From positions 1 to 38,680 of IMG/VR virus record IMGVR_UViG_3300048837_000628: DNA of 38,680 nucleotides; one strand, 5' to 3'. The position numbers were made by a program, and so were the translations under genes. This DNA comes from a virus. The notes under the pieces are model-generated. The model saw nothing but the letters and a program-made list of their open reading frames with translations, ran no database searches and was not told the origin of the DNA. Of the stretch, positions 2,527 through 33,638 are shown piece after piece. Within the stretch, counting starts at the first letter, position 1; each line of letters opens with the position of its first letter.

Positions 2527-3053
2527 GCGATCAACCCCTGTCCCTCTCGCGCGCCGATCGTCGCAAGTTCGAGAAGGCGATGCGCCGCGCGCCGCGCGCG
2601 TCCCGCCAGAGGCCCACCCGCGCCGATCTGCCGCTGCGCCTGATCCCGTGGAACATCCACGCCGTCTGGGCGCCGCTCGACCGCATCCTCGCCAAGCTCG
2701 AGCTCGACGGCACCGCCGAGTATTCCGGCGGCGAGCCGGTGCTTTACGATCCCGGGACGAACGACTGGCACAACAGCGCCCATGCCATCCGCGGCATTGC
2801 CGAGTTCTACCAGGTCGCCGCCCGCCGCAAGGGCTGGAAGGGCGTCCAGACCGAGCCCGTCACCCGCATCGCGCGTTTGCTCGAGCTCGACGAGGAGATC
2901 ACCCAGCAGGACATCGACGACGTGCGCGCCTGCTCGATCGTGCTCCGCAAGCTCGCCGGCTCGCTCACGCTGCGCGAGGCCAAGGCCGTCCTGGCGGATA
3001 CGTGCATCAAGATCGAAGCGGAGAAGGCGGGGTTGACGGAGCGTGCAGCATGA
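2523..3053 (+). CDS. Hypothetical early phage protein
   Basis: 176 residues, start chosen at the ATGA overlap with the preceding stop. The first 35 residues are very basic (RRKFEKAMRRAPRASRQRP). The body has a conserved-looking LIPWNIHAVWAPLDRIL segment and a helical C-terminal region. No catalytic motif or membrane segment is seen and I cannot name a family. Its place between a Cro-like protein and AlpA suggests a replication or regulation accessory role. Confidence 0.7.
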   Translation: MSDQPLSLSRADRRKFEKAMRRAPRASRQRPTRADLPLRLIPWNIHAVWAPLDRILAKLELDGTAEYSGGEPVLYDPGTNDWHNSAHAIRGIAEFYQVAARRKGWKGVQTEPVTRIARLLELDEEITQQDIDDVRACSIVLRKLAGSLTLREAKAVLADTCIKIEAEKAGLTERAA

Positions 3054-3307
3054 CCGCCAAGAAGATCCCCATCACCCCGGTTTTCCTGGACCTTCCCACC
3101 GTCGCACAGGTTGTCGCCCTCTCCACCGCGACCATCGAGCGCCTGGAGCGCGAGGGGCAATTCCCCAAGCGCCGCCAGTTGTCCGGCCAGCGCGTCGGCT
3201 GGCTGGTGCGCGAGGTGCAGGAATGGGCAGAGTCACGGCCGGTGTCGCAGCTACCGCCGCCGCCGAATACCGGGGCGTCGAAGCCGCGCAGCAGCGTGTC
3301 GGCTTGA
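3050..3307 (+). CDS. AlpA-family phage regulator / excisionase-like protein
   Basis: 85 residues beginning at an ATGA overlap with the preceding stop. Residues about 10-62 form the MerR-like winged helix typical of AlpA proteins: FLDLPTVAQVVALSTATIER, a basic EGQFPKRR wing, then GWLVREVQEW. AlpA-type proteins activate or control integrase expression and excision in P4-like elements. The C-terminal tail is Pro/Ser-rich and probably disordered. It is the last gene of the early operon, about 90 bases before an intrinsic terminator, and a P4-type integrase lies downstream in opposite orientation. A direct excisionase role is possible but not shown. Confidence 0.85.
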   Translation: MTAKKIPITPVFLDLPTVAQVVALSTATIERLEREGQFPKRRQLSGQRVGWLVREVQEWAESRPVSQLPPPPNTGASKPRSSVSA

Positions 3308-3360
3308 CCCGCCTCCGATCCGGGCCTATCCTTCGCCCGTCGCTGCAAACAACAGCGGCA

Positions 3361-3376
3361 CGGGATTGGCGTCCCG
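3361..3376 (+). other. Hairpin with TTGGCG loop (upstream copy)
   Basis: CGGGA-TTGGCG-TCCCG, a perfect 5-bp stem. The loop is identical to that of the hairpin at 3519-3536 while the stem sequence differs, and it is complementary to CGCCAA in the C4-like RNA (3494-3499). Confidence 0.5.
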
Positions 3377-3396
3377 GATCGTAGGCGGACACATCC

Positions 3397-3419
3397 GCCG
3401 CGCATCTTGCGGCTTTTTT
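3397..3419 (+). terminator. Intrinsic terminator after early operon
   Basis: GCCGC (3397-3401), a 7-base loop, GCGGC (3409-3413), then six Ts (3414-3419). It lies 90 bases after the AlpA-like gene and just before the C4-like RNA, so it would separate early-operon transcription from the immunity locus. Confidence 0.7.
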
Positions 3420-3420
3420 G

Positions 3421-3500
3421 TGCCCGCGCGCATGGCCTCCTATTGGGCGGACCGTGCGGGGAGCCGAAAGGCTCGCCAGCCCTACGACTGGTACGCCAAC
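3421..3500 (+). ncRNA. C4-type antisense RNA (P1/P7-like immunity RNA)
   Basis: Three hairpins can be folded directly. The first is GCATGG (3430-3435) with CCGTGC (3452-3457) around a 16-base loop. The second is GAGCC-GAAA-GGCTC (3461-3474), with a GNRA loop. The third is CCAG (3476-3479) with CTGG (3488-3491), followed by single-stranded CGCCAA (3494-3499). The first loop contains CTCCTA (3437-3442), complementary to TAGGAG (3559-3564), the antirepressor Shine-Dalgarno, and GGGCGGA (3445-3451), complementary to TCCGCCC (3511-3517). CGCCAA is complementary to the TTGGCG loop at 3525-3530. In P1/P7, C4 RNA is cut from the leader of the icd-ant transcript and blocks antirepressor synthesis in this way. 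Ends are approximate and no promoter was assigned. Confidence 0.75.
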
Positions 3501-3575
3501 CTGCACGTGTTCCGCCCGCCCCGATTGGCGTCGGGGAGCGGAAAATCAAACCGCTTCGTAGGAGTTCGGCCATGA
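3432..3575 (+). CDS. Short Ash/Icd-like leader ORF overlapping C4 RNA
   Basis: 47 codons in frame from the ATG at 3432. It resembles short Ash/Icd-like phage peptides (GSRKARQPYDWYANLHVF, then SGSGKSNRF). Its TGA (3573-3575) overlaps the antirepressor ATG (3572) as ATGA, the arrangement that couples ant to icd translation in P1. The same bases carry the C4-like RNA, so the apparent protein conservation could be a by-product of RNA constraint. There is no good Shine-Dalgarno for this ATG; a longer upstream start in the same frame is possible. Treat as tentative. Confidence 0.35.
   Translation: MASYWADRAGSRKARQPYDWYANLHVFRPPRLASGSGKSNRFVGVRP
3519..3536 (+). promoter_or_regulatory. Antirepressor leader hairpin, probable C4 target
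   Basis: CCCCGA (3519-3524), loop TTGGCG (3525-3530), TCGGGG (3531-3536): a perfect 6-bp stem about 35 bases before the antirepressor start. The loop pairs fully with CGCCAA of the C4-like RNA, and TAGGAG at 3559-3564 pairs with the other C4 loop. Confidence 0.6.
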
Positions 3576-4522
3576 CCGACATCACCCCGCGCGCATCCGC
3601 GCCTTCCGTCTTTTCCTTCGAGTCCACCAGCGTCCGCACCTTCGCCGACGATCACGGCGAACCGTGGTTCTGCGCTGCCGACGTTTGCGCAGTTCTCGGG
3701 TACGCGAACAGCCGTCAAGCCATTCAGAAGAACTGCCGCGACAAGGGTGTATCCATTAGAGACACCCCCACGGATGGCGGCATCCAGGCGCTTACCTTCA
3801 TCAACGAGGGCAACCTCTACCGGCTCATCATCAAGAGCCGCAAGCCCGAGGCCGAGCGCTTCGAGATCTGGGTGATGGAAGAGGTGCTGCCGGCGATCCG
3901 CAAGACCGGCCAGTACGTCGCCCAGCCCTACACCCACAACCCCGGCGATGCGCTCTCGCTCGACCAGGCCGACACTCTGCGCAAGCTGCTCACCGACGCG
4001 GCCAAGCAGCGCCACCCTGGCGACGGCAAACAGCAGGGCGCGTTCCTCATGCGCGGCTGGTCCAAACTCAAGGCGCACTTCAAGCGCGGCTACCGCGAGA
4101 TCCCGCAGGCCGAGTTCGCCGAAGCCGTCTCGCTCGTCGCCCGCCACATCGCCGAACAGGGCGAGCTGATCGAGGAAGCCCCTCAGCCCACCGCGGACAT
4201 GGTGAGCAAGGCGCACGCGATGCGCTGCTTCGATCTGGCCGGCGCCCTGGCGAGCGCAACGCAGCAGGCCACGGTGCGCCAGCTTCTCGACCTGGACGAG
4301 CGCGACCTACGCAGCGGGCGCTTCGTCTTCGCCTGCAACGGCGACACCCCGTTCGTGAAGCGCCTCGAGGACGACGCTGTCGTTCTGAGCTGGAGCGAGG
4401 CGCCGAAGCTGATTGCCACCAACGACAGCGCGATCGACACGGCGACGCTGCAGGCCATCGCCAACGCGGCCATCAAGCGCCTGACGCAGCGCATTCCATC
4501 GACCAGCAGCGTTTTCCGCTGA
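3572..4522 (+). CDS. ant: BRO-N antirepressor (Ant-like)
   Basis: 316 residues. The ATG at 3572 follows TAGGAG by seven bases and overlaps the leader ORF stop as ATGA. Residues about 10-115 are a BRO-N domain (WFCAADVCAVLGYANSRQAI, then EGNLYRLIIKSRKPEAERFE and WVMEEVLPAIRKTGQY). Residues about 150-200 (WSKLKAHFKRGYREIPQAEF onward) match the P22 antirepressor C-terminal type of domain. Such proteins inactivate a phage repressor and promote lytic growth. The C-terminal 110 residues are unassigned. The C4-like RNA upstream is complementary to its leader and ribosome-binding site, so control at translation is expected. Confidence 0.88.
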   Translation: MTDITPRASAPSVFSFESTSVRTFADDHGEPWFCAADVCAVLGYANSRQAIQKNCRDKGVSIRDTPTDGGIQALTFINEGNLYRLIIKSRKPEAERFEIWVMEEVLPAIRKTGQYVAQPYTHNPGDALSLDQADTLRKLLTDAAKQRHPGDGKQQGAFLMRGWSKLKAHFKRGYREIPQAEFAEAVSLVARHIAEQGELIEEAPQPTADMVSKAHAMRCFDLAGALASATQQATVRQLLDLDERDLRSGRFVFACNGDTPFVKRLEDDAVVLSWSEAPKLIATNDSAIDTATLQAIANAAIKRLTQRIPSTSSVFR

Positions 4523-4537
4523 CCGAGCGCTGCATGA

Positions 4538-5839
4538 CTACCGCTGTGCCAGCTCCTCCAGCCTCTCGGAGAGCCGGCGCAGCCACTCCACCCGCTCGGC
4601 GTCGTACTGGTGGCGGTTATACACCCCGGCGACGCCAGGAATCATGTGCCCGAGCACCGACTCTGCCACGTCGCCCGGGCACCCCATTGCAGCCAGCAGC
4701 GTCCGGGCCGATCGCCGCAGATCATGCGGCGCCCAATGCGTCACCGGCAGCCGCGCGCGTTCGAGCTCGGGCCGCGTCGTGCTGTAGGGCTGATGATAGT
4801 AGACGGCCACCTGAACCGCCTTCTGCTCCGAGTGCGTGAGCTTGCCGTCGCGCCGCTTCGCCGGGAACAGCCACCCATCCCCAAATCGCTCCTTGCGGCG
4901 CAGCACGACATTCAGCGCCCGCCCGAACAGCGGCACGCGCAAGTCCGTTGCGCTCTCGTGCCGCGCGTTCTTGGTCTTGGCCTTCGGGATCGTCCACCAC
5001 CAGACTCCGCCCGCCTCCTGCCGGACCTCTCCCCCTTCCATTGCGACGATCTCCGCGCCACGGGTGCCTGTCCACAGATACAGCGTCAGCGCGTCCTCCA
5101 CCAGTGCTGTGAAGTTCGGCAGCCAGCGGATCAGCGCGCCGAGCTCCTCGGGCGACAGCACCCGCTTGGTCGTGCCGACGCGCTCGCCCGCAATCCGCTT
5201 GCCCTTCGACCGGATCTTGCCCCGCAGGATGAGGCGCCACCAGTTCGGCACGGTGTCGGGCAGCCGGCCGGCGTCAATGGCGTAGTCCCATGCCGCCCCA
5301 AGTTCGGAGCGTAGCTTTTTGGCCTGTACCGGCGTCGCTGCGGCGTAGCTTTGGATGAGGTCGAAGGCGTGCGAGCGCGTCACCTCGGCCGCCGGCTTCG
5401 CGCCAAACGCCCCGAGCATGGTGTCGAACATCCGGCGCACCTCATCGGCGCCCTTTCTGGCGCGCGACAGCCGAACATGGCCCTCATGGTAGTCGGCGCA
5501 CAGGTCGGCCACGGTGTAGCCGGCCTGCGACTGCGCTGCGGCTGCCTGTGACCGGGCCTGTCGCTCACCCGCCCGCGCCTCTTTCGCGTCCACCGCAGGA
5601 TCGGCCCCGGCCTCGCGCGCCGCGCGCAGCTTCTCCCATTCGGCCGCTGCGGCGTGCAGCGACATCGCCGGCCAGCGCCCGATCTTGATCTGCCGCATCC
5701 GTCCGTCGACGGGCGACTTGTAGCGGTAGATCCATGTCCGAAAATTCGCGGTCGCCTCAAGTCGAAGCCCGGGGAAATCCGGGCTGGTAAGATGCTGTCC
5801 CGCCTGCAGCAGCTTCATTGCGCGGGCATCGAAGGTCAC
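4538..5839 (-). CDS. int: P4-type tyrosine integrase
   Basis: 433 residues. I chose the GTG at 5839 because GGAGAAG lies about seven bases upstream and the product then begins MTFDARAMKLLQAG, as expected for this group; the open frame extends upstream to 5947 without a better start. Domains: an N-terminal arm-binding domain (LRLEATANFRTWIYRYKSP, about 20-90), a core-binding helical domain (about 115-220) and a catalytic domain (about 230-430). Catalytic residues visible are R260 (TGTRGAE), H372 and R375 (HDLRRSARTLL), H398 (LGHM) and Tyr407 (GVYNRHQY). It recombines phage and host attachment sites. It converges with the antirepressor, with only 15 bases between the two stops. Confidence 0.94.
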   Translation of the reverse strand: MTFDARAMKLLQAGQHLTSPDFPGLRLEATANFRTWIYRYKSPVDGRMRQIKIGRWPAMSLHAAAAEWEKLRAAREAGADPAVDAKEARAGERQARSQAAAAQSQAGYTVADLCADYHEGHVRLSRARKGADEVRRMFDTMLGAFGAKPAAEVTRSHAFDLIQSYAAATPVQAKKLRSELGAAWDYAIDAGRLPDTVPNWWRLILRGKIRSKGKRIAGERVGTTKRVLSPEELGALIRWLPNFTALVEDALTLYLWTGTRGAEIVAMEGGEVRQEAGGVWWWTIPKAKTKNARHESATDLRVPLFGRALNVVLRRKERFGDGWLFPAKRRDGKLTHSEQKAVQVAVYYHQPYSTTRPELERARLPVTHWAPHDLRRSARTLLAAMGCPGDVAESVLGHMIPGVAGVYNRHQYDAERVEWLRRLSERLEELAQR

Positions 5840-6172: not shown

Positions 6173-9100
6173 TCAACCAACCTCGGCAAACCTCCCTTCG
6201 TCCACCACATCACGCCGAGTCCGCGGCAGATACACCCCGTCATCCGCCTCGCGTATCCGGCGCTCGCGGTTGCGCACGCTCTGCCACATCTGCGGCGGCG
6301 TGATCCGGCGCCCTGGATTGACCTTGTTGAAATCGGCGATCGCGGCTCTAGCTTCGGCCATTCCCCCCTGGTCCTGATCCATCGCAGCCCGAGCGAACTG
6401 CGTCATCAGATCCTGGCGGCGCTCGTTGAGTCGTCGATCGGCGCTCATCACCGCGCTGCGCCCCTCGAAGGCAAGGCGGATCTCGGACGGCGAGAAGCCG
6501 GACGCCTGCCCGAGCACGCCAGCCAGGCTCACTTCGTCCTTGATGACCACGCCAGTCCGGTCGACTTCGCCATCGCTGTACTGGCGGTATGCCTTGATCG
6601 GGTTGCGGGCGAAGATCGGCAGCATGTCCTCCAGCCCGCGGCCGTAGTCTCCATCTGCCATCTTCTGCGCGCCCTTGGCGGCATTCACCCCCATGCCGAT
6701 AACTGGGCCCAGCATAGCGGTAGCGAACGATTCGGCCCAACGCTGGCCCTCCAGGCTCTCATTCACGTCCGGCAGCAGCAGCTTGTCCAGGCCAACGCGG
6801 CCGGAAATGTCCCACGGCGTCAGGCGAGAGAAGCCCTTGGCGATCACTTCTGAGGCTTTCGGGCCGAATGCGTCAGCCAGCATGTTGCGCATGGCGACTT
6901 CCGCGTCCCACGGCTCATCGTCACTGCCACCCAGCGCTGAGGCAAGTGTCAGCAGTGTTCCAACCAGCGGCAGACCCAGCACACCAGCAGCGGCCGCGTG
7001 CATGGTCATCAGCGCACCGAATACCTTGCGCGCCTCGCGCCGAACCTCGGGCGACTCGCCCTTGACTGACTGGTATGCGTTGCGCGCGAGCGTGTAGATC
7101 ATGTTCTGCGCGTACTGCTTGAACAACAGCACCACCCTGGCGACGTTGCCCTGCATCACGCGCGGCCGGTTGCCGGCGGAGTAGTCGAAGTGCCCGTCGT
7201 AGGTTGCCTTGACCGCCTGAGCATAGGCCGTGTCATGCTTGGCGCCAGCGTCACGCGCAAGCCGGTAGGCAGCGATGAACGTCACCTGACGGTTGAAGCG
7301 CTCGGCGTGATGGAACAGGTAGCTCGCCAGCCGCATCACCGGGCGAATCTTCCACATCACCTTCGCATCCTCACCCTGCGCGATGCCGGCGAGGTCGTGG
7401 GCCATCGTCACGTCGATGGTGCCGGTTCGCACCGCCTCGTCGTAAGCGGCAATCTCGTCCTGGTGCTTGCGCAGCGCCTTCGGGTCTTGCTCGTTCTTCA
7501 GCCGGGCAGCCAAGACGGCACGAAGGTCGTTCTTGCCTTCCACCACTTCAGCCGAAGCCGCCATCAGCGCGGCGCCCGCCTTCCTGAATCCCCACTTTGC
7601 ACCCATCACCGGGTAGGCAACCAGCGGCGTCTGCGACAGGTTCACCACCGCAGCAGCCGGCGAAATGCCCAGGTAGTAGACAAAGCCGAAGCTGGTGAGC
7701 GCAGTCGAAAGCGGGTTGCCCTTGGGGTTCATCGTCGCTTCATGGCGCTTGTTCATCTCATCCACGACGCGCTGCGCCGCCGGCTGATCGAACCCCTCAA
7801 TCGGCGCCATCTCGTCGACGTGCTTCTGCATCCGATCCAGTTCGGACTGCATCTGGTCGCCGTACTTCAGCTTGGCGAGGTAGCGCGCGCCGTGGAACGT
7901 GTTCTGCGCGAACGCTCGACGCGCATCGCTCGAGAAGCCCGGGGTGCCCTTCCGGTGAATGCCATGCTTCGCCCACGAGAGATCGGGGAGCGACGACAGG
8001 TAGAGCTGGCCCAGGGTGTCCTCGAGCTCGGCCTGCACGCGCGGATCCAGCCCCTGCTCGTCCAGCGCCTCGTAGAGCTCGGTCATGAACCCGCGGCCCA
8101 CCATGTCGCGGCCGGCGACAAACTCCTTGCTCAGAATCACCCGCCCAACGTGATACCCATCCCTGGCCGGGAACGCCTTGACCATCTCGGCGCGCATGGT
8201 CTCGGCCTCGGCCATGGTCTCGGCGCGCGAAACGCTCGCCACCTTTCCGGCGTTGTCCTTCGTCACCACAACATATTGACCGAAGCGCGACAGCGGGAAA
8301 TACACGCCCTTGATGGCCTTGAAGAAGTCGGCATCCATGCGCTTCAGCAGCTCGGCGCGGCGATCTTCCCGCAACTCGCTGCGCATGATGCGATCGATGA
8401 TCGCCTGCCGCACCGCAGCGTGATGCTTGCGGTAGTGGTCGCGCGCCTCCCGATAGACGTTCTGCGCTTCGGCCGAGAGCTGGCCGAACTGCGCCTTGAG
8501 CGCTCGGCTCTTAGCGAGGTCGTCCCCTGGCACATACTCGACGGCGGAATCCGCATCGATCTGCGCCAAGGTGGCGTCGTGCATCAAGTCGGCCAGCTTG
8601 CCCTCGTCGGGCAGCTTGCCCCAGCGCCGCGCGAGCTCGTCGGCCGCGGCGCCAACGTCGTTCTTGTCGGCCTCCATCTGCGCGGCGAGCCGATCGTAGT
8701 CGGCCAGCGGCAGCACGTCGCCGTAGACGTCGGTCAGTTGCCGGCGGCCCAGGAATTGCAGTCCGAGCTTGAGCCAGTCGGTCAGCTTGTGCTTGCCGGC
8801 CTTCTTCACATCCTGAACAGTGATCGCCTTCAGGCCGGCGCCGATGTTCCTGGCGGCCTGCTGCATGCCCGACCGACTGAACTGCAAATCATCCCCCCCC
8901 CGCTCTGCCGTCTGCGCAATGCTGCCGCGTACCTGCTGCTGCGCCATCCTGATGTTACGCTTGTGCCAGAACGCCGCACGCCCGGCATTCGGGGCGTCGT
9001 CGGTCAGGATGCGCTCGGCCACGCGCAACACCTCAGACAGCGCGGTGTCGTTGCGCGCGCTCAAGCCCAGCAGGTTGCGCACCGCCTGAACGAAGTTCGA

Positions 9101-12100
9101 CCACATCGAGCCCGCGCGATAGGGGATCGTCTCGAGGTAGGCTTGCGCCTCGCCGCTCGACAGCGCCCAGGCCAGCACCTCGTCATCGCTGCGGAAGGCG
9201 TTGTTCGCGCCCTCGCGCATGTCCTGCTCGAACGCGGTCAGCATTGCCTTGCCGGCGTCTGCTGCGTCGAAGCGCTTGCGAATATGCTCGGCAATGGCGT
9301 CGGTCACGGCCATCAGGTCACGCGCATGCTTGCCGGCCATTGAGTTCGGGGTCTGCGTGCCATAGAAAACCATGCCGGCCGTGGCGGCATGAACCAGCTC
9401 GTGCAGCAAAACCTCTTCTTCCGTGCCGACCTTGCCGGTCACGTCCGCCCCGTTGAGCCAGACCACGATGTCGCGGCCCTTCTCATCGAACCCGGTCTCC
9501 GTGTAGCCGCGCGCATTCACCATGCTGGCGGGGGCCATGTCGCCGCGGTGGACAACCTTCAGGTCGAGCACAACACCGGCTTTCTCAAGCCGCTGCAACT
9601 TCTCCAGCACCTTTTGCGCAACGGCCGCTTTCGCGCCGTCTTTCGAGCGCGTCATGAACTGCGCTGCTTCGATCAGCGTCTTGCCCTCGATGGCAGACTG
9701 CACGCGCTGCGCTTCTTGTGCAGGCGCGTCGCCGACTGAGCGGTGGAAGGCTTCAGTTTGCGGGGCGCGTGCTCCGATGCTGGCCGAAGCCTTCACTGCG
9801 CCCGCGCGGACCTCGCCGGCGGCCGCCCGGTCAAGCCCAGCCATCGCGTAGCCCACGAAGTCGTCCACCGTCATCGTCTTCGCGCCCAGCCCGTTGCGCA
9901 GCATCCAGGTGCGGATCATGCCGGCGAACGAGCGCAGGAAGTCGCCCACGCGCTTGCCGATCTTCGCGTCCACCCACTGCATGAAGGCGTTGTCGGCGAA
10001 GGCGTAGCCGGCGCTGCGGCCTTCGATCACCGCCTGCTCGACGATGTAGGCGGCTGCCTCGGCTGCGTTCCCGGCCTCGCCGGCCACGATCATCCGCAGC
10101 ATCACGCGATCGAGGAAGGAGCGCAGACCCTCGTCCTTCAGGCCGTGCCGGGTGCGGACCATTTCCAGCGCCCGCGCGTCGATCATCTGGCGCTGCTGGC
10201 CGTGCAACATTTCGTGCAGCATCACCGCCGTGGCCGTGACCGGGTTCAGGTTCGGCCCCACCAGGAAGGTCAGGCCGCTCTTGGGATCGTAGAAGCCGTT
10301 GATGCGGCCTGCGCTGGAGAACTTGCGCATGGTCGAATCCAGCTTGCGGCCGGTCCGCTCGGCCACGATGCGGCCGATCTCGGCATTGTCGGCGGTGCCG
10401 ATCACGATCACGCCGCCGCGCTTGCCGGCCCGGCCGCGCTCGAGCAGCTTGCCGGTGATCTCGGCGAGTCCGTCGAACTGGACGCGCATCGCGCGCACGA
10501 GACCCTTTTCGGTGATGCCGATCCGGACGGCGTTGCGATCGCGCGGGGGGGTCGCCGAGAAGGCTACGTCGGCGTCAGAATCTCCCGGCTGCCGAGCCCC
10601 GTCATCAACGGCCCGCATGGCACGGCCTGCGGTCGCCTCGGCCTTCTCCTTGACGATCTCGACCCGGCGAATCCGGCCGTCCTGCATCACCGTGCGATCG
10701 CCGCCGTTGAAGCTCTTGAAGTCGCGGTGGATGCGCTTCCACTCGTCCATCGTCATCTTGACGGGGCCGGCGTATTTCGCAGCATCGGCAGCGTCGGCGG
10801 CCTCGCGGCGCTCGCGGTCTGTCTGCTCTGCGGCAGCCATGCGGGCGCGGTCCTCGGCAACGCCGCGATCAAAGACCGCCTGGCCGCGCTTCGCAAGGTC
10901 GTTCAGCGTGTCATCGTAGCCCTCGAGACCGTACCGCTTGGCGTGCTCGCGCGCATCGCGGATCGGGTATCCGTCGCGCTGGAAGCCGTTTCCGTCGGCG
11001 ATGCGCTTTTCCGCGTTGGCGATCATCTCTTCCAGTTCGCGGCGCGGCGCTGCGAACTCGTCGTACTCGGCCTTATAGGCGTACCCGAACGGCAGCCATG
11101 CGCCGCCAACCTTGAACTCCTGGCGCGCATTGGAAATGCCGTCGATCTGGCCCGTCTCCATCGGGTACTTGCCCGACACCTTGACGGTTTCTCCGCGCTT
11201 GAAGGTGAGCGTCTGGCGCTGATCCTCATCGACGCGCTCGACGGTGAATTGGTCGCGGTCGGAGGCCGGTTGCTCGGCCGCAGGCTGCGCGACTTGCTTC
11301 TCCGCGCCCCAGAAGCTCTCAAGGAACCTGCCAAGGCTCTCGGGCGCGGCGGGGTAGCTGCCCAGCAGATCACCCTTGCTGCTCTCGACGCGCAGCCGTC
11401 CGCCCTTCTCCTTGATGGTGGGGCCGGGGAACTTGCCTTCGCTGCCAATGGCCCCGTCCGCGCGAACCTCGTAACCATAGGTGCGCGCAACGGCCTCGTA
11501 GGCAGCAAACGGCTGCGCCACATAGCCGTCGTTCGCAAGCCGCACCAGCGCCGCCTCTTCTGCCGCGGCCTTTGCCGCTTTCAGCGTCGGGTACGTCGTG
11601 CCGTCGATGTTCCACTTCCCGCCCTGGTAGGACTCGATGGTGCCGTAGTTCATCGCGCCGCGCTTGGCGGCCATGCGCTCGGCGCTCTCGAAGAACGCAA
11701 GCCGCATGCTCTTCACGTTGTCGCGCTGGCCCAGGTCTTCCCAGATCATCAGGGCGCGCGCTTGCTCGGGCGTCATAAGGTCGTCGGCCATCGCTTCGGC
11801 GTCGGCTGGCGCGTCACCCTGCTCGGCAGCAGCATCGGGCTGCGCGGTCGCCGCGCGCTCGATCTCCGCAATCAGTTCGTTCATGCCGCGGATCTTCTGG
11901 ATCGTCGGGTGCATGCCGCGCCAGTTGCCGGTGCTGGTCAGATACCAGCCGCCCATGTCCTGCTGGACCTGCCAGTCCTGGCCGTCGAGGGCCACGATGT
12001 CGCCGGCCGCGTAGGGCGCGAAGGCCGAGACTTGGACGGGATTACGGCGGGGGCCGGTAAGGGCGGGCTGGTTCGCGGCCGGCGGCTGCGCGGGTACTTC

Positions 12101-15100
12101 TACCGCAGCGGGCTCGCCATCGCTTTGCACGTCGTCCAGCGCATCGGATACGGCCTGCGCATCTTCGCTCATCAGCGCCTTGACGCGATCCGCCTGGATC
12201 ATGCGCGCACCGCCAGCAAGGCCAAGTGCATCGAACACCGCCCGCAACTCGGCGCCCGATGCTTCCTCAAGGCGCTTGCGTAGCGGGCTGTCCTGCTCGG
12301 CGCTGCCTGCACGATTGGCGCGGACAAGCGCCACGCTGATCTGGTCGCGCAGCGCGTCAAGGTCGGCCGCATCTTCGATGTTCGCATCCGCCCACGCCTC
12401 CTCGGGGGCGATGGCGCGAAGCTGCGCGTTCATGGCCTTGAGCGTGGCAATGGTGCCGCCGCGATTGGCAAGCTCCATCTGACCATCGCGCGACGACACG
12501 TCGGAAGGGCCGGCGTACCGCTTCGCTGGTTGCTCGGGCTGCTGCGCCGCATCTTCCGGCTGGTCGTACATCGCCATCATCTGCGCAAACGCCTGCGGGT
12601 CGCCTTGGCCGGCTCGCTGGCGGGCCGAGGCCTCGCGCGCCGCAGTTTCCTCGGCAGCCTCTTGCTCCGCACGCCACGCATCGTAATCCTTGCCCTTCGA
12701 TGCCTCCTTGAACCTGTCCAGCAGTTTGCCCTCGTCCTTGCTCTTCTTCAGGCGCGCGATCTCGATGGCGTTGCCGATCTCTTCCAGCACGTCGCCGCCC
12801 TGGTAGCGACGATCGACCGCAGAAAGCCCTTCGATGCGCTTGATCTCGGCATCCAGGTTGACCGCCCCGGCCATGCCGCTGCCGTAGTTCATCGGGCGGT
12901 CCGGGTTCTTCGCAAAGCCGGGGGACTTCTCCACCTTGGCGCGGAAGTCGCGCAGCTTCTCGACGGTGTTGACCACCTTGAATTTGACGTCGCCCGGAAC
13001 GTCGAAGGAAACGAAATCCTTGGCGTCCAGAACGGTCGCGTCGAACTGCCAGCTTCCGGTCTTGCCCTTGACGACGAATTTTCCGGTCTTGACGATGCGC
13101 GCGGCGTCTTCCTTCGCAAGCTCGAGGTTCGGTGCGCGCACGGCTTGATCGGGGTTCTTGCCCCACACGACCGCGAACCCACCGCCAGCGGCTTGCTCGA
13201 TGTTCAGGCTCGGCGTCAGGCCGTCGGTGTCCTTCGGTCCATCTACGCTCCACGTTTTCACGCCGGCATAGGTCGCCGGCTTGTCGGCGATCTTCACGCC
13301 ATCGAAGATTCGGTCGGCAGTCGGGGCGACAGCGATGGCCTTGTCGATCTCGCCCAAGATCCACGCCTTCGCCTCGGCCGGGTTGAAGTCGGTGTTGCGC
13401 GCCGACTTCTGGATGGCTTCGGCGATGACGGGCTGCGTGACCGGCTCTGCGGGCTGGCCGGGGTCTTTGTGGGTAGCGACGGCTGCGGGCGCGTCGGCCT
13501 TCTTGCGAATCAAGTAGCCCTTCATCCCGGCATGCACGTCTCCAGCCGGCACAACATCGTGCGTCTCAGTCAGTCCGCGCGCGTTGAGTTCGCGCGAGGC
13601 TGCGGCCTTGATGGCAAACGCCTTACCGTCCTTTGTGGTGATGACGTTGAAAAGCGGATTGCCCGCCATCTCCTTCGCGCCCTCGGCTTGCTTCTCGCCG
13701 GTCGGATCGAGGTTGTCGCGGTGAATCCAGGTCGTCTTGCGCTTGCCGTCCTTCGTGAACATCGGCATGCGCTCGCGGGCGCCCGACAGGTCGGCGGTGC
13801 GCACGGTGACGGTCTTGCCGTCGCGGTCCTTCAGCGTGGTGAACTCGGGGTTTTCGGCTCTGCCCGTCTTGCCCTCGTCGGGGCGGGCAACATCAGCGGA
13901 GGGCTGTGCCAGCGCCGCGGCCGCCGCCGGTGCCTGTGCCTCGCGAATGACGCGCTCTGCATCGCCGACGCGGATCCCGGTGGCCTGATGCACCTGGAAG
14001 GGCGTCATCTGCACGCCGGCCTGCTCGGCCTCGCGCACGGTTGCAACCGCATCGGCCAGCGGGACGAAGCGCACTTGCGTGCCTGCGGTCACGCCAACAT
14101 CGGATTCTGTGCGCTCGCTGTCGGCGCCCTTCTCCCATAGGTCGCGCTCGGCCTGCGTGCGGGTCGTGCCTGACTGGCTATCGAACCTTGCTGCGGTCGG
14201 CGTTACTGCGGCCCGGCCTTGGGTTTGCGCGCCCTCGCCTTCCTGTCCGCGCGCTTCTTGCGCTTGCGGAGCCATTTGTTCAGTCGGGGGCACATTGGTG
14301 GGCTGGACTCCTTGCGATGCAGTGGGTTGAGCAACGGGGGCTGCTGTATCGGTGGCGCCTTCTACGCCGGCAGGCTGTTGAGCGCCGGCCGTTCCCACAG
14401 GAACACGCGCTCTGCTGCCGGGTGCAGGTGCTCCGGCAGGTCGATCCACTCGTCCGAGGTCGACAGGGCGACCTGGTGCCACTCCTGCGCTTCCTGCGGG
14501 GACAGCACCTGATCCTTGACCGCTCGCTGCATCCACTTGGGCAGACTGGACATCGGGGGCTCCTTGCATCAGGCGCTCGATGGTCGCCCGGGTGGTCGGG
14601 TTGATCTTCGTCCAGTTCTGGCCGGCGAGCTTCTTGCCGATGACGTTGAGGCCGCCCTTTGCGGTCGCCCAGCCGCCCGGCTTGGTCAGGATGGCGGTGC
14701 GCTGCTCGGCGGTCATGCCGTCCCAGCCTTCGGACGTGGCCGGCGGGATGGCCTCGGATGGCTGCGCCGATTCGCTACGCTGGCTCGGCGCGGGCCTCGA
14801 TTGCTCGGGCGCCGTGGGCGCCTGAGTCGGTAGTTCAATGGCGGGCGAGGTCGCGGCCGGCGCTTGCGCGACGTCAGCAGGCGCTTGCTGCTCGACCGCG
14901 GCTTGCGCGGCCGGCTCGACAGCGGGCGCGGGGGTTTCTGCCGGCTGCTGCGCGGCGCGGCGCTGGATCTCGGCCGCAGCAGCTTCGCGCCAGCCGTCAC
15001 GCCCGGACTTCTCCAGCACGCGAAGCTGATCGTCGGTGCGGCCGGAAACGTCGATTGCCGGTGCGGGTTCGACCGTTGCAGCGGCTGCGACAGGCTGCAC

Positions 15101-16870
15101 TGCTGCTACAGGCTGTCCGGCGCCCTTGCGCTTACGATACTGCTCTTGCCACGCCGCAAACTCGGCCTTCCCGTCCTCGTCCATCTGCGATGGGATGCCC
15201 AGCGTTGCCCGAACACCGATGATCCATCCAGACAGCTCTTGATGCGCAACGAACCCGACTTGATCCTTTACTCTGGCTCGGACCTCTTTCACCGTGAGCC
15301 CTTGAGCGAACAAGTCTTCAATCTTGCTCGTAAGTCCTGCCTTGTCTGCTTGGTCGCGGGCCTGTTGCGCGTTTTCGTTGACCCACGATCCGGCATCGGC
15401 CCCAACTTGGACGCGCGGGACTTCGTGTGCGGCTTTGGCAAGCTCGGCCTGCAAGCGGTCTCGCTCTTCGATCGTGCGCCGGTCCCATCCGCCATTCACG
15501 CGCGCCTGCTGCTCGATGAAGCCCAGGCGCTCGCGCATCTGCTCGGGCGTGTCGGTCGCCTGCTTCTGCTCGGGCACGCGCGCGCCAGTCTCCAGGATCT
15601 CGCCGGTCTCGGGATCGACGGCCTGCGCCGCCTGCTGCATTGTCGCCGATGCGCCGGTATCGACCGCGAGTGCCGCGGCGGCCGACATCGGACCAGCGGC
15701 AGGGTCAAGGCCCATCTGCTGCGACGGTAGCGGCGCGGCAGGTTCCAGGGCGCGATCGTTGATGATCGGCGCGGGCGCGGGCGGGAACACGCCGGCACGG
15801 CCCAGCGCGGCCTCGTCAATGACCGGGCGCTCGGCGGTCGGGGTGAAGCCTTGTGGCGGCGCTGCGGGCGGCTCGGCGCCAGTGGGCGGCGGCAGCCCGC
15901 TGCCCTGCGGTTCAGGGCGCGTCATGCCGCTGTAGAGCGATGCGCCGCCGCCCATCGCCATGCCGGCCAGCGTGCCCATCACGGCCGCGTCTTCGACGCC
16001 TTCGCTCCACGGCTTGCCAAGAGCGAGGTTCTGGATGATCTGCTCGGAGATCGACTGCGGCAGCTCTTCGAGGAAGCCCTCGGAGATTGCGCCCTCGACC
16101 ACTTGGCGCGGGATACTCTTGGCCGGCAGCGCAGCAATCTCGCTGGCGACCTGCTGCGGGTTCGCGCCGCGGGCGAGCATGGTGTCGACGTCGCCCAGGC
16201 CAAAGCGCTGCGCTACGCGCCCACCCAGGTAGCCGAAGAGCGTACCGGCAAGGCCGGTCGCCACCGCAGCGCCAGCTTGCGTGGGCGTCAGCAGCCCGTC
16301 GTCAGTTTCCTGGCGGATCGCCGATGCCTGCGAGCCGGCCATCATCGTGCCTTCGCCGATCGCGCCGGCTGCGGCTGCGCCCTTGGCGCCCATCTGGCCC
16401 AGTCGCGTGCCAGCCATCAGCCCGCGCGCCGCAACGCCGCCGGCCAGCATGGGGGCAACCGACTCAGTGACGGCGTTCGCAATCAGGGACGGATTCTGGA
16501 TGGCGACTGCCGTCTTGTCCAGGATGCCGTCGGCCTCCTGGAACTGGCGCTGCTGATCCTTGTACTGGTCCGTGTGGAACTCGCTGACGAGCTCCTTGGC
16601 CTGCTTCGGCCGGAAGCCGACGGCGCCGCCTTCGTTCTCAAGGAACTTGCCGACACGGCCGCCAGTGGGGATGTCGGCAAGGCCGACGACGGTTTCAGGA
16701 ACGGCGATCGCCGACTTGACCGCGGAGAGGCCCAGGTCGCGCGCGTGCCCTAGAAAGCCCTTGGGCTCGGGCTTAGTCTCTCCGCCGAACGCCTCCCAGG
16801 GCTTCTGTTCTGCCGGTGCATCGCTGCTGGTGGTGTTGCTGAACTCTTCCCAGGGCTTGCGATCGGCCAT
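6173..16870 (-). CDS. Giant polyvalent phage protein with two HExxH sites and PLxRFG motif
   Basis: 3565 residues. The ATG at 16870 overlaps the upstream stop as TGATG and follows GGGAGAAAG. The N-terminus has PWEEF/PWEAF motifs (within the first 25 residues), then Gly/Ala-rich hydrophobic stretches (about 130-310). A very long Ala/Gln/Pro-rich middle contains folded islands such as WDGMTAEQRTAILTKPGGWA. Two zincin-type sites follow: HEMLH (H2219, H2223, followed by G) and HELVH (H2490, H2494). PFPLSRFG-like PLSRFG lies at 2859-2864, in the domain known as PLxRFG in phage large polyvalent proteins. A hydrophobic segment at about 3285-3315 and a basic C-terminus close it. Being last in a late virion operon, it is most likely packaged and ejected with DNA, the HExxH parts acting as peptidases. 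That role is inferred; the family is known to be multi-domain and variable. Confidence 0.85.
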   Translation of the reverse strand: MADRKPWEEFSNTTSSDAPAEQKPWEAFGGETKPEPKGFLGHARDLGLSAVKSAIAVPETVVGLADIPTGGRVGKFLENEGGAVGFRPKQAKELVSEFHTDQYKDQQRQFQEADGILDKTAVAIQNPSLIANAVTESVAPMLAGGVAARGLMAGTRLGQMGAKGAAAAGAIGEGTMMAGSQASAIRQETDDGLLTPTQAGAAVATGLAGTLFGYLGGRVAQRFGLGDVDTMLARGANPQQVASEIAALPAKSIPRQVVEGAISEGFLEELPQSISEQIIQNLALGKPWSEGVEDAAVMGTLAGMAMGGGASLYSGMTRPEPQGSGLPPPTGAEPPAAPPQGFTPTAERPVIDEAALGRAGVFPPAPAPIINDRALEPAAPLPSQQMGLDPAAGPMSAAAALAVDTGASATMQQAAQAVDPETGEILETGARVPEQKQATDTPEQMRERLGFIEQQARVNGGWDRRTIEERDRLQAELAKAAHEVPRVQVGADAGSWVNENAQQARDQADKAGLTSKIEDLFAQGLTVKEVRARVKDQVGFVAHQELSGWIIGVRATLGIPSQMDEDGKAEFAAWQEQYRKRKGAGQPVAAVQPVAAAATVEPAPAIDVSGRTDDQLRVLEKSGRDGWREAAAAEIQRRAAQQPAETPAPAVEPAAQAAVEQQAPADVAQAPAATSPAIELPTQAPTAPEQSRPAPSQRSESAQPSEAIPPATSEGWDGMTAEQRTAILTKPGGWATAKGGLNVIGKKLAGQNWTKINPTTRATIERLMQGAPDVQSAQVDAASGQGSGAVPAGSAGVAPGRPVDLGRVDRPAGAPAPGSRARVPVGTAGAQQPAGVEGATDTAAPVAQPTASQGVQPTNVPPTEQMAPQAQEARGQEGEGAQTQGRAAVTPTAARFDSQSGTTRTQAERDLWEKGADSERTESDVGVTAGTQVRFVPLADAVATVREAEQAGVQMTPFQVHQATGIRVGDAERVIREAQAPAAAAALAQPSADVARPDEGKTGRAENPEFTTLKDRDGKTVTVRTADLSGARERMPMFTKDGKRKTTWIHRDNLDPTGEKQAEGAKEMAGNPLFNVITTKDGKAFAIKAAASRELNARGLTETHDVVPAGDVHAGMKGYLIRKKADAPAAVATHKDPGQPAEPVTQPVIAEAIQKSARNTDFNPAEAKAWILGEIDKAIAVAPTADRIFDGVKIADKPATYAGVKTWSVDGPKDTDGLTPSLNIEQAAGGGFAVVWGKNPDQAVRAPNLELAKEDAARIVKTGKFVVKGKTGSWQFDATVLDAKDFVSFDVPGDVKFKVVNTVEKLRDFRAKVEKSPGFAKNPDRPMNYGSGMAGAVNLDAEIKRIEGLSAVDRRYQGGDVLEEIGNAIEIARLKKSKDEGKLLDRFKEASKGKDYDAWRAEQEAAEETAAREASARQRAGQGDPQAFAQMMAMYDQPEDAAQQPEQPAKRYAGPSDVSSRDGQMELANRGGTIATLKAMNAQLRAIAPEEAWADANIEDAADLDALRDQISVALVRANRAGSAEQDSPLRKRLEEASGAELRAVFDALGLAGGARMIQADRVKALMSEDAQAVSDALDDVQSDGEPAAVEVPAQPPAANQPALTGPRRNPVQVSAFAPYAAGDIVALDGQDWQVQQDMGGWYLTSTGNWRGMHPTIQKIRGMNELIAEIERAATAQPDAAAEQGDAPADAEAMADDLMTPEQARALMIWEDLGQRDNVKSMRLAFFESAERMAAKRGAMNYGTIESYQGGKWNIDGTTYPTLKAAKAAAEEAALVRLANDGYVAQPFAAYEAVARTYGYEVRADGAIGSEGKFPGPTIKEKGGRLRVESSKGDLLGSYPAAPESLGRFLESFWGAEKQVAQPAAEQPASDRDQFTVERVDEDQRQTLTFKRGETVKVSGKYPMETGQIDGISNARQEFKVGGAWLPFGYAYKAEYDEFAAPRRELEEMIANAEKRIADGNGFQRDGYPIRDAREHAKRYGLEGYDDTLNDLAKRGQAVFDRGVAEDRARMAAAEQTDRERREAADAADAAKYAGPVKMTMDEWKRIHRDFKSFNGGDRTVMQDGRIRRVEIVKEKAEATAGRAMRAVDDGARQPGDSDADVAFSATPPRDRNAVRIGITEKGLVRAMRVQFDGLAEITGKLLERGRAGKRGGVIVIGTADNAEIGRIVAERTGRKLDSTMRKFSSAGRINGFYDPKSGLTFLVGPNLNPVTATAVMLHEMLHGQQRQMIDARALEMVRTRHGLKDEGLRSFLDRVMLRMIVAGEAGNAAEAAAYIVEQAVIEGRSAGYAFADNAFMQWVDAKIGKRVGDFLRSFAGMIRTWMLRNGLGAKTMTVDDFVGYAMAGLDRAAAGEVRAGAVKASASIGARAPQTEAFHRSVGDAPAQEAQRVQSAIEGKTLIEAAQFMTRSKDGAKAAVAQKVLEKLQRLEKAGVVLDLKVVHRGDMAPASMVNARGYTETGFDEKGRDIVVWLNGADVTGKVGTEEEVLLHELVHAATAGMVFYGTQTPNSMAGKHARDLMAVTDAIAEHIRKRFDAADAGKAMLTAFEQDMREGANNAFRSDDEVLAWALSSGEAQAYLETIPYRAGSMWSNFVQAVRNLLGLSARNDTALSEVLRVAERILTDDAPNAGRAAFWHKRNIRMAQQQVRGSIAQTAERGGDDLQFSRSGMQQAARNIGAGLKAITVQDVKKAGKHKLTDWLKLGLQFLGRRQLTDVYGDVLPLADYDRLAAQMEADKNDVGAAADELARRWGKLPDEGKLADLMHDATLAQIDADSAVEYVPGDDLAKSRALKAQFGQLSAEAQNVYREARDHYRKHHAAVRQAIIDRIMRSELREDRRAELLKRMDADFFKAIKGVYFPLSRFGQYVVVTKDNAGKVASVSRAETMAEAETMRAEMVKAFPARDGYHVGRVILSKEFVAGRDMVGRGFMTELYEALDEQGLDPRVQAELEDTLGQLYLSSLPDLSWAKHGIHRKGTPGFSSDARRAFAQNTFHGARYLAKLKYGDQMQSELDRMQKHVDEMAPIEGFDQPAAQRVVDEMNKRHEATMNPKGNPLSTALTSFGFVYYLGISPAAAVVNLSQTPLVAYPVMGAKWGFRKAGAALMAASAEVVEGKNDLRAVLAARLKNEQDPKALRKHQDEIAAYDEAVRTGTIDVTMAHDLAGIAQGEDAKVMWKIRPVMRLASYLFHHAERFNRQVTFIAAYRLARDAGAKHDTAYAQAVKATYDGHFDYSAGNRPRVMQGNVARVVLLFKQYAQNMIYTLARNAYQSVKGESPEVRREARKVFGALMTMHAAAAGVLGLPLVGTLLTLASALGGSDDEPWDAEVAMRNMLADAFGPKASEVIAKGFSRLTPWDISGRVGLDKLLLPDVNESLEGQRWAESFATAMLGPVIGMGVNAAKGAQKMADGDYGRGLEDMLPIFARNPIKAYRQYSDGEVDRTGVVIKDEVSLAGVLGQASGFSPSEIRLAFEGRSAVMSADRRLNERRQDLMTQFARAAMDQDQGGMAEARAAIADFNKVNPGRRITPPQMWQSVRNRERRIREADDGVYLPRTRRDVVDEGRFAEVG
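8893..8901. repeat. C9/G9 homopolymer in giant gene
   Basis: Nine consecutive C on the plus strand (G on the coding strand) at about codon 2657, in frame here. It lies directly before a DDLQFSR linker and the PLxRFG half of the protein. A one-base slip would remove roughly the last 900 residues. Confidence 0.9.
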
Positions 16871-18918
16871 CAGACTTTCTCCCAACTTGCTTGGTCGGCG
16901 GGGTTCCCACCCTTGAATCGGTATCCGCCACGGACTTCGCCGGATCGCGGCGCGGCGGGGGCGGCCTGCCCTGCCGGCTGATCCACGAACTGCCCGGATT
17001 GGTTGTTGAAGACCATCGACGGGCGGGTGTAGGGCATGCCTTGCGGGCTGATTTCCTGCCCGCCCGGGACAACGGTGAAGCGGTTTGGCGCCTCCTTGCC
17101 GCTCAGTGCGCGGAGTTGTTCGGCCACGGCTGAGCGCTCCTCCGGCGTCTTGGCGTTCTCATAGGCGGCGTACAGCCTTTCCACGCGCTGCAGGCCGCGC
17201 GCCTCGAAGCCACGCACCTCGGCCTCACTATCTGCACGACGGCGATCCACGCCGACTCGCTCGCGGTCGGTTGCGTTGCGCTCGGCGCTGCGCCTCGACT
17301 CGCCCTCTTCCCGCATGGCTGCCGCCCGCTCGTCGGACTCCAGCTTTCGTCCGCCTGTGCGATCGGCCTCGTACATCGCAGCGTTCTGCATCTCCATATT
17401 CCGCTCGCCGGTTCGCCCGAAAAACTGCGCGCGCTGCGCGCGTTCGTTTGCCATGTTCCGGTTCTGCAGCGCGCTCAGTTGGTCGGCATCCCGGCGACTC
17501 TCGGCGGAGTTCGGCGTCCAGTTGTCGGCCCTGCCATCCATGCGGTTCTGCCGGATGCGGTTGTTCTCGGCGATCATGGCCGAGGCTTGCTGGTCGCGAG
17601 CCGCGGCGCCGCCACCTTGTGCGGCGAACCCGGCAGCTTGCGGCTGCCCGCCTGTCGACGCACCGGCCTGCACGCCCGACATGGCCTGACCGGCCGGCAA
17701 GTTGGTGAATAGCGGGCTCTTGAGTCCTGGGGCGTTGTCGATGCGGTTGATTCCCTCGGCAGACGTGGGGCGCACGCTCATGCCGGGGGCCGGGCCTTGT
17801 CCGGGGTCGGGCGTGAAGCCGTAATCCGTGCGCCCCTTCGTGGAGGGTAGTTCCGTGGCGCCGACAGCAGCCGGCGGAATCGGCGCAGCGGCAGGCGTCG
17901 CCGCAATGGGCGAAGGCGCTCCGGCGTTGCCGTAGTCGGCCAGGCGCGCTTGATCGCTTGAGCGAGCGAAGAATCCGCCGACGGCGCTTGCTGCATCTTT
18001 CACCGGGTCGCCGCGGTTCAGGTAGGTGAGCGCGTCGCTCACGCCGGCGCCCGCGCCTGCCATCTGGCCGGTGGCCGCTCGTCCGCCGGCAGCAAAGTCC
18101 TGGCCGGCACCGGCGACAGCGCGCGGCGCGTCGGCGATCTGATTGTCTGCAGTCTGCCCGAATTCGCGAACGCCCTGCGCCACATCACCCGGGCGCACCG
18201 GCGCACCCGGCGGCATCTGGCGCGGCGCGCCGGTGCGCGGCACGTTGGGCTCACGCTGCATGCCAGAAAACCCAAACTGGGGCGCCTGCGGCTGCGCCGG
18301 CGCGGGCGACGCGCCTTGTGTGCTCGGCTGCGGAGGCTGGGCGGACGGCCGCGTGGTGGCCGTGGGGTCGATTCGGCCGGTCGCGGCCGGCGTGCCGGGC
18401 TGGGGGATGCTCGGCGCGCGCTGGAGGTCGCCGTAGGCGATCGGCTGCGGCTGCGGCGCACCCGTGCGCGGCGCGGGCTGCGGGGTTGCGGCCGGCATGC
18501 GCTGCCCGGTCATGTCGCCATAGCTCACACCCAGGGGGCCGCCCTGCATGCGGCGCCGGCGCTCTTCCTCGGCCGGTGAGCCGCCATCAAAAAAGTAGAG
18601 TTCGCCCTCTTGCGGCTTGAACCCCGCAGCGACGGGCGCGTGGGTGGCGTCGCGCATCTGATTGAGCGCCTGGACGCCGACGGCGTGCACCTGCTCAGGC
18701 GGCATCTGATATTCGCCGTTGCTCACGTTGACCGGAACCGGCTCGCCGAGATTGCCTAGCGCCTTCGGCCCGATCTGCTGCGTCGAGTCCGCGGGCATGA
18801 TGTAACTTCCGCGAGGCACTTCAGCCTTGATGCTGTCCGATGTGCCGGTGCCCGGGCCTTTGATCTTCCCGCCCTTCTGTTTGTCTGCGGGCTTGAAGCC
18901 CGGCTTGAACCCTTGCAT
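16870..18918 (-). CDS. GTSDSI-type virion/ejection-associated protein
   Basis: 682 residues from the ATG at 18918; an upstream in-frame start at 19014 would run through a terminator hairpin and is unlikely. The N-terminus reads KIKGPGTGTSDSIKAEV and then RGSYIMPAD, a segment I recognise from structural or internal virion proteins of podovirus-like phages. Residues about 150-450 are Pro/Ala/Gln/Gly-rich and probably disordered. Residues about 480-620 are charged and helical (RREA-type coiled coil with many Arg/Glu). The C-terminal 60 residues carry a FTVVPGGQEISPQGMPY segment. It is immediately followed (TGATG) by the 3565-residue protein, so the two are probably made in fixed ratio and may act together at DNA ejection. 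The biochemical role is unknown. Confidence 0.75.
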   Translation of the reverse strand: MQGFKPGFKPADKQKGGKIKGPGTGTSDSIKAEVPRGSYIMPADSTQQIGPKALGNLGEPVPVNVSNGEYQMPPEQVHAVGVQALNQMRDATHAPVAAGFKPQEGELYFFDGGSPAEEERRRRMQGGPLGVSYGDMTGQRMPAATPQPAPRTGAPQPQPIAYGDLQRAPSIPQPGTPAATGRIDPTATTRPSAQPPQPSTQGASPAPAQPQAPQFGFSGMQREPNVPRTGAPRQMPPGAPVRPGDVAQGVREFGQTADNQIADAPRAVAGAGQDFAAGGRAATGQMAGAGAGVSDALTYLNRGDPVKDAASAVGGFFARSSDQARLADYGNAGAPSPIAATPAAAPIPPAAVGATELPSTKGRTDYGFTPDPGQGPAPGMSVRPTSAEGINRIDNAPGLKSPLFTNLPAGQAMSGVQAGASTGGQPQAAGFAAQGGGAAARDQQASAMIAENNRIRQNRMDGRADNWTPNSAESRRDADQLSALQNRNMANERAQRAQFFGRTGERNMEMQNAAMYEADRTGGRKLESDERAAAMREEGESRRSAERNATDRERVGVDRRRADSEAEVRGFEARGLQRVERLYAAYENAKTPEERSAVAEQLRALSGKEAPNRFTVVPGGQEISPQGMPYTRPSMVFNNQSGQFVDQPAGQAAPAAPRSGEVRGGYRFKGGNPADQASWEKV

Positions 18919-32963: not shown

Positions 32964-33638
32964 TTAGGAACCTCTTTCGCGTTCGACTATGGCGGCTTTC
33001 AGGCGCTGCAGTTCTTCGCCGGTGAGCAAGCCCAGCATGTCAATGACCTTGTCAATCGCACGAACTCCGTGCGGGTCTTTCTTCCCTGCGCCCACCCACA
33101 GCTCCAGGTTTTCTGGCCTGTTGTCGGCCCTGTCCCCGTTCTTGTGGTGCACGCGCTCTTTCGATGTCAGCGCTCTGCCTAGAACCTGCTCCATCACCAG
33201 CCGGTGCTGCATCACCTTTTTGCCGTCCTTCCGCACCATCAAATAGCCGTTGCTGCTCTTGGTGGTATCCCCGAGCACACGGGCATCAAGCGTAACGACC
33301 GGGGCCTTCATGCCATCCTTGCGGGCGGCGAAAAAGCACTCGCGCGAGCAATATGCGCGGACTTTCCCATGCGGGCGCTCGAAGTCATTTTTGCACCACG
33401 CACAAACACATCGCTTGTCCGCACTGATGCCTTTGTTTTTGCACCCGACCGAACAGTATTGCTGCTGTGCATACTTCCCCTGGAACACGGTGTTGCAAAC
33501 AGGGCAGGTCTTTTCCGACGCTGTGGATCGGGCATACCAGCATTGCTTCGAGCAAAACACCTGCTCGTCCCTGCGCGGCCTAAAAACTTCTCCGCACTGC
33601 TGGCATGCGCGATCTGGGATGCTTCTTAGCGCAGTCAT
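32964..33638 (-). CDS. Free-standing HNH homing endonuclease with three zinc knuckles
   Basis: 224 residues. Three Cys-rich knuckles precede the nuclease: C12/C15/C29/C33, C45/C48/C62/C66 and C79/C82/C97/C101. The HNH site lies at about 143-181: HRLVMEQVLGRAL, then H164-H165 (VHHKNGD), N173 and N177 (DNRPENLELW), as in homing HNH enzymes of phages. The C-terminus is helical (GLLTGEELQRLKAAI). It starts 53 bases after the second exon of the intron-split gene and ends two bases before the next gene. It lies outside the ribozyme, so it is not an intron ORF in the strict sense. It carries its own promoter-like sequence. It would cut an intron-less or HNH-less allele and spread by repair; this target is inferred. 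Confidence 0.87.
   Translation of the reverse strand: MTALRSIPDRACQQCGEVFRPRRDEQVFCSKQCWYARSTASEKTCPVCNTVFQGKYAQQQYCSVGCKNKGISADKRCVCAWCKNDFERPHGKVRAYCSRECFFAARKDGMKAPVVTLDARVLGDTTKSSNGYLMVRKDGKKVMQHRLVMEQVLGRALTSKERVHHKNGDRADNRPENLELWVGAGKKDPHGVRAIDKVIDMLGLLTGEELQRLKAAIVERERGS

Follow-up and report, generated by a model that had tools for sequence, protein, structure and literature searches.

The region between an AlpA-like regulator gene and an antirepressor gene (ant) in a prophage-like sequence, a virus record that is linear and 38,680 bases long, taken here in its entirety and hereafter called the window, very probably carries an immunity switch of the C4 antisense RNA class, in which C4 would be excised from its transcript, would pair with the sites a2 and b2 and would keep ant repressed (Table 1). 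Our confidence in the class comes in part from the Rfam models of C4 (RF01695) and of its upstream target element c4-a1b1 (RF03163), which both score above their cut-offs, and from isrK, which comes near its own. The sequence contains all six segments (a1, b1, b', a', a2 and b2) in their order, together with the predicted fold, and the paired segments covary in relatives, in agreement with the initial annotation, which had proposed a C4-type antisense RNA for the antirepressor from the sequence alone. The weight of the evidence lies in the arrangement and the covariation, since single 7-mers are not rare in the window (TTGGCGT occurs 11 times and TCGTAGG 5 times on the + strand). The locus is well preserved but ordinary, of a kind known from phages P1 and P4, and the window adds one more well-preserved C4 immunity switch.

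The C4 locus and its neighbours

The Rfam search of the whole window, which the initial annotation had suggested, returned three elements above the curated cut-offs: a group I intron far from the locus, c4-a1b1 (49.3 bits against a gathering score of 46.7, E = 1.1e-9) and C4 (47.2 bits against 45, E = 3.8e-6, a margin of only about 2 bits, with a third hairpin shorter than the consensus). In a permissive scan of the 451-nt stretch 3200-3650, the isrK model (RF01394) aligned to 3339-3419 (+) with 44.8 bits (E = 1.4e-8); the layout is the same, but the gathering score of 50 was missed and we do not file the locus as a member of that family. A nucleotide search with the L002 leader found no homolog in annotated phages.

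Table 1. Features of the C4 locus and adjoining genes in the window
Feature	Position	Strand	Basis
AlpA-like/excisionase-like regulator, upstream of the RNA locus	3050-3307	+	PF05930, E = 3.9e-12
Predicted sigma-70 promoter, TTGACC-17-TATCCT (transcription predicted to begin near 3339)	3304-3332	+	1 found against a mean of 0.0 in shuffles
c4-a1b1 target element	3326-3380	+	RF03163, 49.3 bits
Predicted short RNA of the IsrK type, comprising a hairpin, the a1 hairpin, b1 and the terminator	3339-3419	+	isrK alignment
a1, TTGGCGT, loop of hairpin 3361-3376 (stem CGGGA/TCCCG)	3366-3372	+	exact complement of a'
b1, TCGTAGG	3379-3385	+	exact complement of b'
Predicted intrinsic terminator, GCCGCGCATCTTGCGGC-TTTTTT, between b1 and C4	3397-3419	+	predicted
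C4 antisense RNA	3439-3523 (model match); 3445-3520 (predicted mature form)	+	RF01695; fold
C4 closing stem, 5' arm, GGGCGGA	3445-3451 (pairs with 3511-3517)	+	fold
b', CCTACGA, third-hairpin loop (hairpin 3475-3492)	3481-3487	+	fold; partner-specific match to b2 and b1 in relatives
a', ACGCCAA, unpaired junction	3493-3499	+	fold; complementarity
C4 closing stem, 3' arm, TCCGCCC	3511-3517	+	fold
a2, TTGGCGT, in hairpin 3519-3536 (stem CCCCGA/TCGGGG)	3525-3531	+	complement of a'
b2, TCGTAGG, overlapping the ant Shine-Dalgarno	3556-3562	+	complement of b'
Antirepressor gene ant, 316 aa (Bro-N; PHROG Ant)	3572-4522	+	PF02498, E = 4.9e-25; phrog_245 (anti-repressor Ant), E = 2.3e-47
Tyrosine integrase, convergent with ant	4538-5836	-	PF00589, PF13356; phrog_1

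The segment map was transferred from the annotation of a1, b1, C4, a2 and b2 in the P1 record. The predicted mature C4 is 76 nt long, starts with GGG and folds into three helices at -45.0 kcal/mol (its ends are also predictions), in line with the three-helix fold, the length of about 77 nt and the GG start of the class and with the three-hairpin RNA described initially. In this fold, the 7 bases of a', and exactly these, stay unpaired after the third hairpin and before the closing stem. As expected of a C4 RNA, a' and b' are complementary at 7 of 7 positions to a2 and b2, which lie around the ribosome-binding site of the target, and equally to the upstream copies a1 and b1. The complementarity first noticed between CGCCAA and TTGGCG corresponds to a' and its two sites, and the two TTGGCG loops do sit on different stems. 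The upstream loop, initially read as a possible second target or decoy, is indeed a target (a1), but it is no unusual extra: it has long been known, being modelled as c4-a1b1 by Weinberg in 2010 (PMC2864571) and annotated in the P1 record. The energies obtained by cofolding C4 with either the a1b1 RNA or the ant leader were uninformative, loop-loop contacts being outside the model of the tool.

Directly downstream of C4, profile matches identify a gene of the antirepressor family and, next to it, the integrase, both of which had been proposed before. Every match of the antirepressor among the annotated phages searched was below 60% identity, so that it had no close relative there, and a search of GTDB genomes gave 7 distant relatives, which served only to locate genomes carrying C4. 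We identified no repressor within the window as the target of Ant.

A short IsrK-like RNA is likely to run from about 3339 to 3419, since a predicted promoter and terminator flank a1b1. The first 13 or so positions of the RF03163 match (3326-3338), single-stranded columns at the 5' end of the model, coincide with the -10 element of the promoter, and the conservation of these columns may be at the DNA level rather than at the RNA level.

Elsewhere in the window, the group I intron (RF00028, 33790-34013, - strand, 52.7 bits) apparently interrupts a gene whose 5' part (ORF 33971-34387) resembles phage minor tail subunits, with up to 69% identity over the first 121 aa. A plausible 3' exon (...WDNGVNKIFRL-stop) follows after 33789, with putative splice sites, and an HNH endonuclease ORF (32964-33638, - strand) lies just downstream. 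Positions 6173-16885 (- strand) form a single ORF of 3570 aa whose matches are PHROG families made up of very large proteins of phages; one of these families is described as DarB-like antirestriction (E = 7.1e-151).

Complementarity across related loci

We sampled genomes of two bacterial orders and found C4 above the cut-off in 53 of 399 genomes of one and in 50 of 299 of the other; we take the orders to be Burkholderiales and Xanthomonadales because the entry genomes were Macromonas bipunctata and a Lysobacteraceae bacterium. The former has 11 C4 copies above the cut-off and several genomes of the order of the latter have 12 to 14; more generally, some genomes (those behind L050, L114 and L111) contain 10 to 14 copies. 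The set used for covariation comprised 109 loci with distinct C4 sequences, among them 37 distinct a' and 101 distinct b' segments, and came mostly from matches to the Rfam model, which selects for the C4 fold and not for complementarity to the flanking sites.

The covariation check called for by the initial annotation supported the class: all four sites were complementary to their own C4 in 71 of the 109 loci against 0.8% when partners were swapped, a comparison in which related loci are not independent and the swapped C4 sequences are drawn from the same set. Six or more Watson-Crick pairs in a row with the own and with a swapped C4 were found, respectively, in 96% and 35% of loci for a1 and in 76% and 3% for b1 (both sites parsed from alignments in the relatives), in 83% and 19% for a2, and in 83% and 17% for b2. 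The strongest partner-specific match was that of b' to the Shine-Dalgarno region (b2), with a mean run of 7.62 for own partners against 5.05 (highest of 2000 permutation means, 5.39), while a' and a2 gave 6.61 against 4.73 (highest permutation mean, 5.09). Six loci (L092, L095, L103, L111, L135 and L140) have good a1 and b1 sites, with runs of 7 to 9, and no downstream a2/b2 match; they are perhaps C4 RNAs with an exchanged target gene, or forms that act by attenuation only.

The 3' arm of the C4 closing stem also has an alternative partner just after a2 (TTCCGC/GCGGAA, 3510-3543). This second pairing is partner-specific in the relatives as well (mean run of 5.52 own against 4.60 swapped; highest permutation mean, 4.98), which suggests that the RNA may alternate between the excision of C4 and the formation of a longer hairpin at a2.

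Of 105 loci, 67 had a sigma-70-like promoter ahead of a1, where shuffled sequences would give 3.7 and the opposite strand gave 2. The distance from the end of the -10 element to a1 was 31 to 32 nt across the 10th to 90th percentiles of the relatives. A terminator-like hairpin was present between a1 and C4 in 70 of the 109 loci, as called by a loose detector that gave 24 when the whole 230-nt stretch was scanned on the opposite strand.

Possible modes of action

We infer the transcription of the locus, its processing by RNase P, the block of translation and the role of the short RNA. A single transcript from the predicted promoter would comprise a1b1, a leaky terminator, C4, a2b2 and ant, and the host RNase P would excise C4 (about 3445 to 3520). 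The junction a' of the free C4 would then bind a2 while its third-hairpin loop b' would bind b2, and since b2 overlaps the Shine-Dalgarno of ant (TAGGAG, 3559-3564), covering it would exclude ribosomes from the gene and the lysogen would remain repressed. The same two segments of C4 would also bind a1 and b1 upstream. Most transcripts probably stop at the terminator, and the resulting IsrK-like short RNA would occupy C4 and tune the switch. The translation block through b2 is the best-supported candidate for the main step, given the overlap of b2 with the Shine-Dalgarno and the partner-specific match of b' across loci. However, a translational block is not to be assumed, since P4, which belongs to the same RNA family, reportedly acts by transcription termination.

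It is quite possible, if somewhat short of probable, that the window locus works mainly on transcription in the manner of P4, with C4 promoting termination at 3397-3419 by pairing with the nascent a1b1 and with a2b2 in a secondary role. The P4 CI RNA region matches the same Rfam families and has all four sites, both P4 and the window have an AlpA-like or excisionase-like gene ahead of the locus, the terminator between a1b1 and C4 recurs in the relatives as described above, and a Gifsy-1 transcription fusion rose 8-fold when IsrK was supplied in trans (PMC4825925). Attenuation alone, however, needs no match between b' and b2, yet that match is retained and is the strongest partner-specific one, and the effect on translation in Gifsy-1 (139-fold) was much above that on transcription (PMC4825925).

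More doubtful is a role of the terminated a1b1 RNA (3339-3419) as an anti-antisense decoy that would titrate C4 and switch ant on, in the way that anrP is triggered by IsrK in Gifsy-1, where IsrK in trans raised anrP translation by the same 139-fold and IsrK carrying G28A or G31A, both in a1, could not (PMC4825925). The alignment of the isrK model, terminator included, and the fixed distance of the promoter ahead of a1 in most loci are consistent with such a decoy. On the other hand, in the proposal of the authors of the Gifsy-1 study the long mRNA itself is what IsrK acts on, and coexpression of the downstream RNA, STnc1160, strengthened rather than weakened the growth arrest mediated by IsrK (PMC4825925). 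Both attenuation and decoy action are compatible with the translation block and inseparable from it by sequence, and the probabilities that we assign overlap because the three are not mutually exclusive.

Coupling of ant translation to an upstream ORF similar to orf45 of Gifsy-1 is improbable: an ORF of 47 codons (3432-3575) does exist and shares an ATGA overlap with ant, as orf45 does with anrP (PMC4825925), but it has no visible Shine-Dalgarno, and we rejected a conserved orf45-like leader peptide because such ORFs are not enriched in the relatives (19 of 86, against 19 and 18 in shifted frames). The initial pairing map, in which the Shine-Dalgarno is covered by CTCCTA (3436-3441), upstream of C4, while TCCGCCC is the target bound by GGGCGGA, is almost certainly wrong, since CTCCTA, although an exact complement of TAGGAG, lies upstream of the predicted mature RNA in a leader that shows no partner-specific complementarity to the Shine-Dalgarno region over the 109 loci (mean run of 5.61 for own partners against 5.39 for swapped ones, with permutation means of up to 5.76), and GGGCGGA and TCCGCCC are the arms that close the fold of C4 itself. 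Two of the three pairings named in that map were thus misassigned and the b'/b1/b2 set was missed; the better-supported anti-Shine-Dalgarno segment is the third-hairpin loop CCTACGA, facing TCGTAGG at b2.

Comparison with P1, P4 and Gifsy-1

The immI region of P1, the member of the P1/P7 pair compared here, has the same order as the window, namely promoter, a1, b1, C4, a2, b2 and target gene. In both, a' is located in the junction, b' in the loop of the third hairpin and b2 where ribosomes would bind to translate the first gene: in P1, a' (CTGTCAA) follows the third hairpin and is the complement of a1 and a2, and the loop carries b' (TCACTAAC), the complement of b2. However, b2 lies directly on the antirepressor gene in the window, whereas in P1 icd comes first and then ant1. 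The target 7-mers also differ, and a different immunity specificity is therefore to be expected. Processing of the P1/P7 C4 RNA by RNase P is recounted in a passage of PMC5320573.

In P4 (CI RNA, seqA and seqC), the CI RNA region scores 74.9 bits with C4, 60.8 with isrK and 44.1 with c4-a1b1, and the same six segments are present, with all four sites and with b2 over a Shine-Dalgarno. P4 thus resembles the window in its Rfam families, its four sites and the AlpA-like or excisionase-like gene upstream. The RNA locus of the window adjoins an antirepressor gene, whereas the P4 system reportedly controls replication genes, by transcription termination according to a passage of PMC4825925.

Further parallels are found in the isrK locus of Gifsy-1, which matches isrK with 79.3, C4 with 69.0 and c4-a1b1 with 48.1 bits. 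Its 16-nt a1 hairpin and its a', a1 and a2 7-mers are the same as in the window, and the two also share a terminated upstream RNA and an antirepressor-like target; b' and b2 differ, the gene upstream is antQ instead of an AlpA-like one, and the window misses the Rfam cut-off for isrK. The 12 mutated bases published for Gifsy-1 all fit a single transcription start in the region, and no other (base 10317 of locus L160), which is position 1 of the isrK model. With this numbering, G28 and G31 are inside a1 (26-32) and C159 and C162 inside a' (158-164), so that the published G28A/G31A and C159U/C162U changes fall in 7-mers identical to those of the window, and the compensatory reporter test of a1 and a' proposed in the initial annotation has essentially been done there (PMC4825925). 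The a' mutations raised anrP-lacZ translation from 4 to 484-926 units and the a1 mutations in cis gave 93-218 units, while 224 and 327 units were measured for the double mutants, far over the wild type (PMC4825925). We read the double mutants as regaining the a1-a' but not the a2-a' pairing, with repression partly restored and a2 left unmatched; the authors themselves explained their results by two alternative folds of the mRNA (PMC4825925).

The same study likens IsrK to SeqA of P4, although the term "C4 RNA" is absent from its text (PMC4825925), and in 2023 the Rfam C4 and isrK models were found to detect relatives of P4 CI and seqA (PMC10111431), so that the kinship of C4, isrK and P4 is not new. 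At most, what could be new is a reading that we consider rather unlikely, in which the C4 loci, including those of P1, P4 and Gifsy-1, would form a single two-RNA switch whose terminated a1b1 RNA, close to the promoter and of the IsrK type, is both the attenuation site and, once released, a decoy for C4. If so, what has been described as three separate mechanisms would be different sides of a single system, and the Gifsy-1 point mutations already published would be a1/a' mutations of a C4 RNA. The literatures on P1 C4, P4 CI/seqA and Gifsy-1 IsrK/STnc1160 align on the same six segments, which brings the role of the upstream element within direct reach of experiment and opens the published compensatory mutants to reinterpretation.
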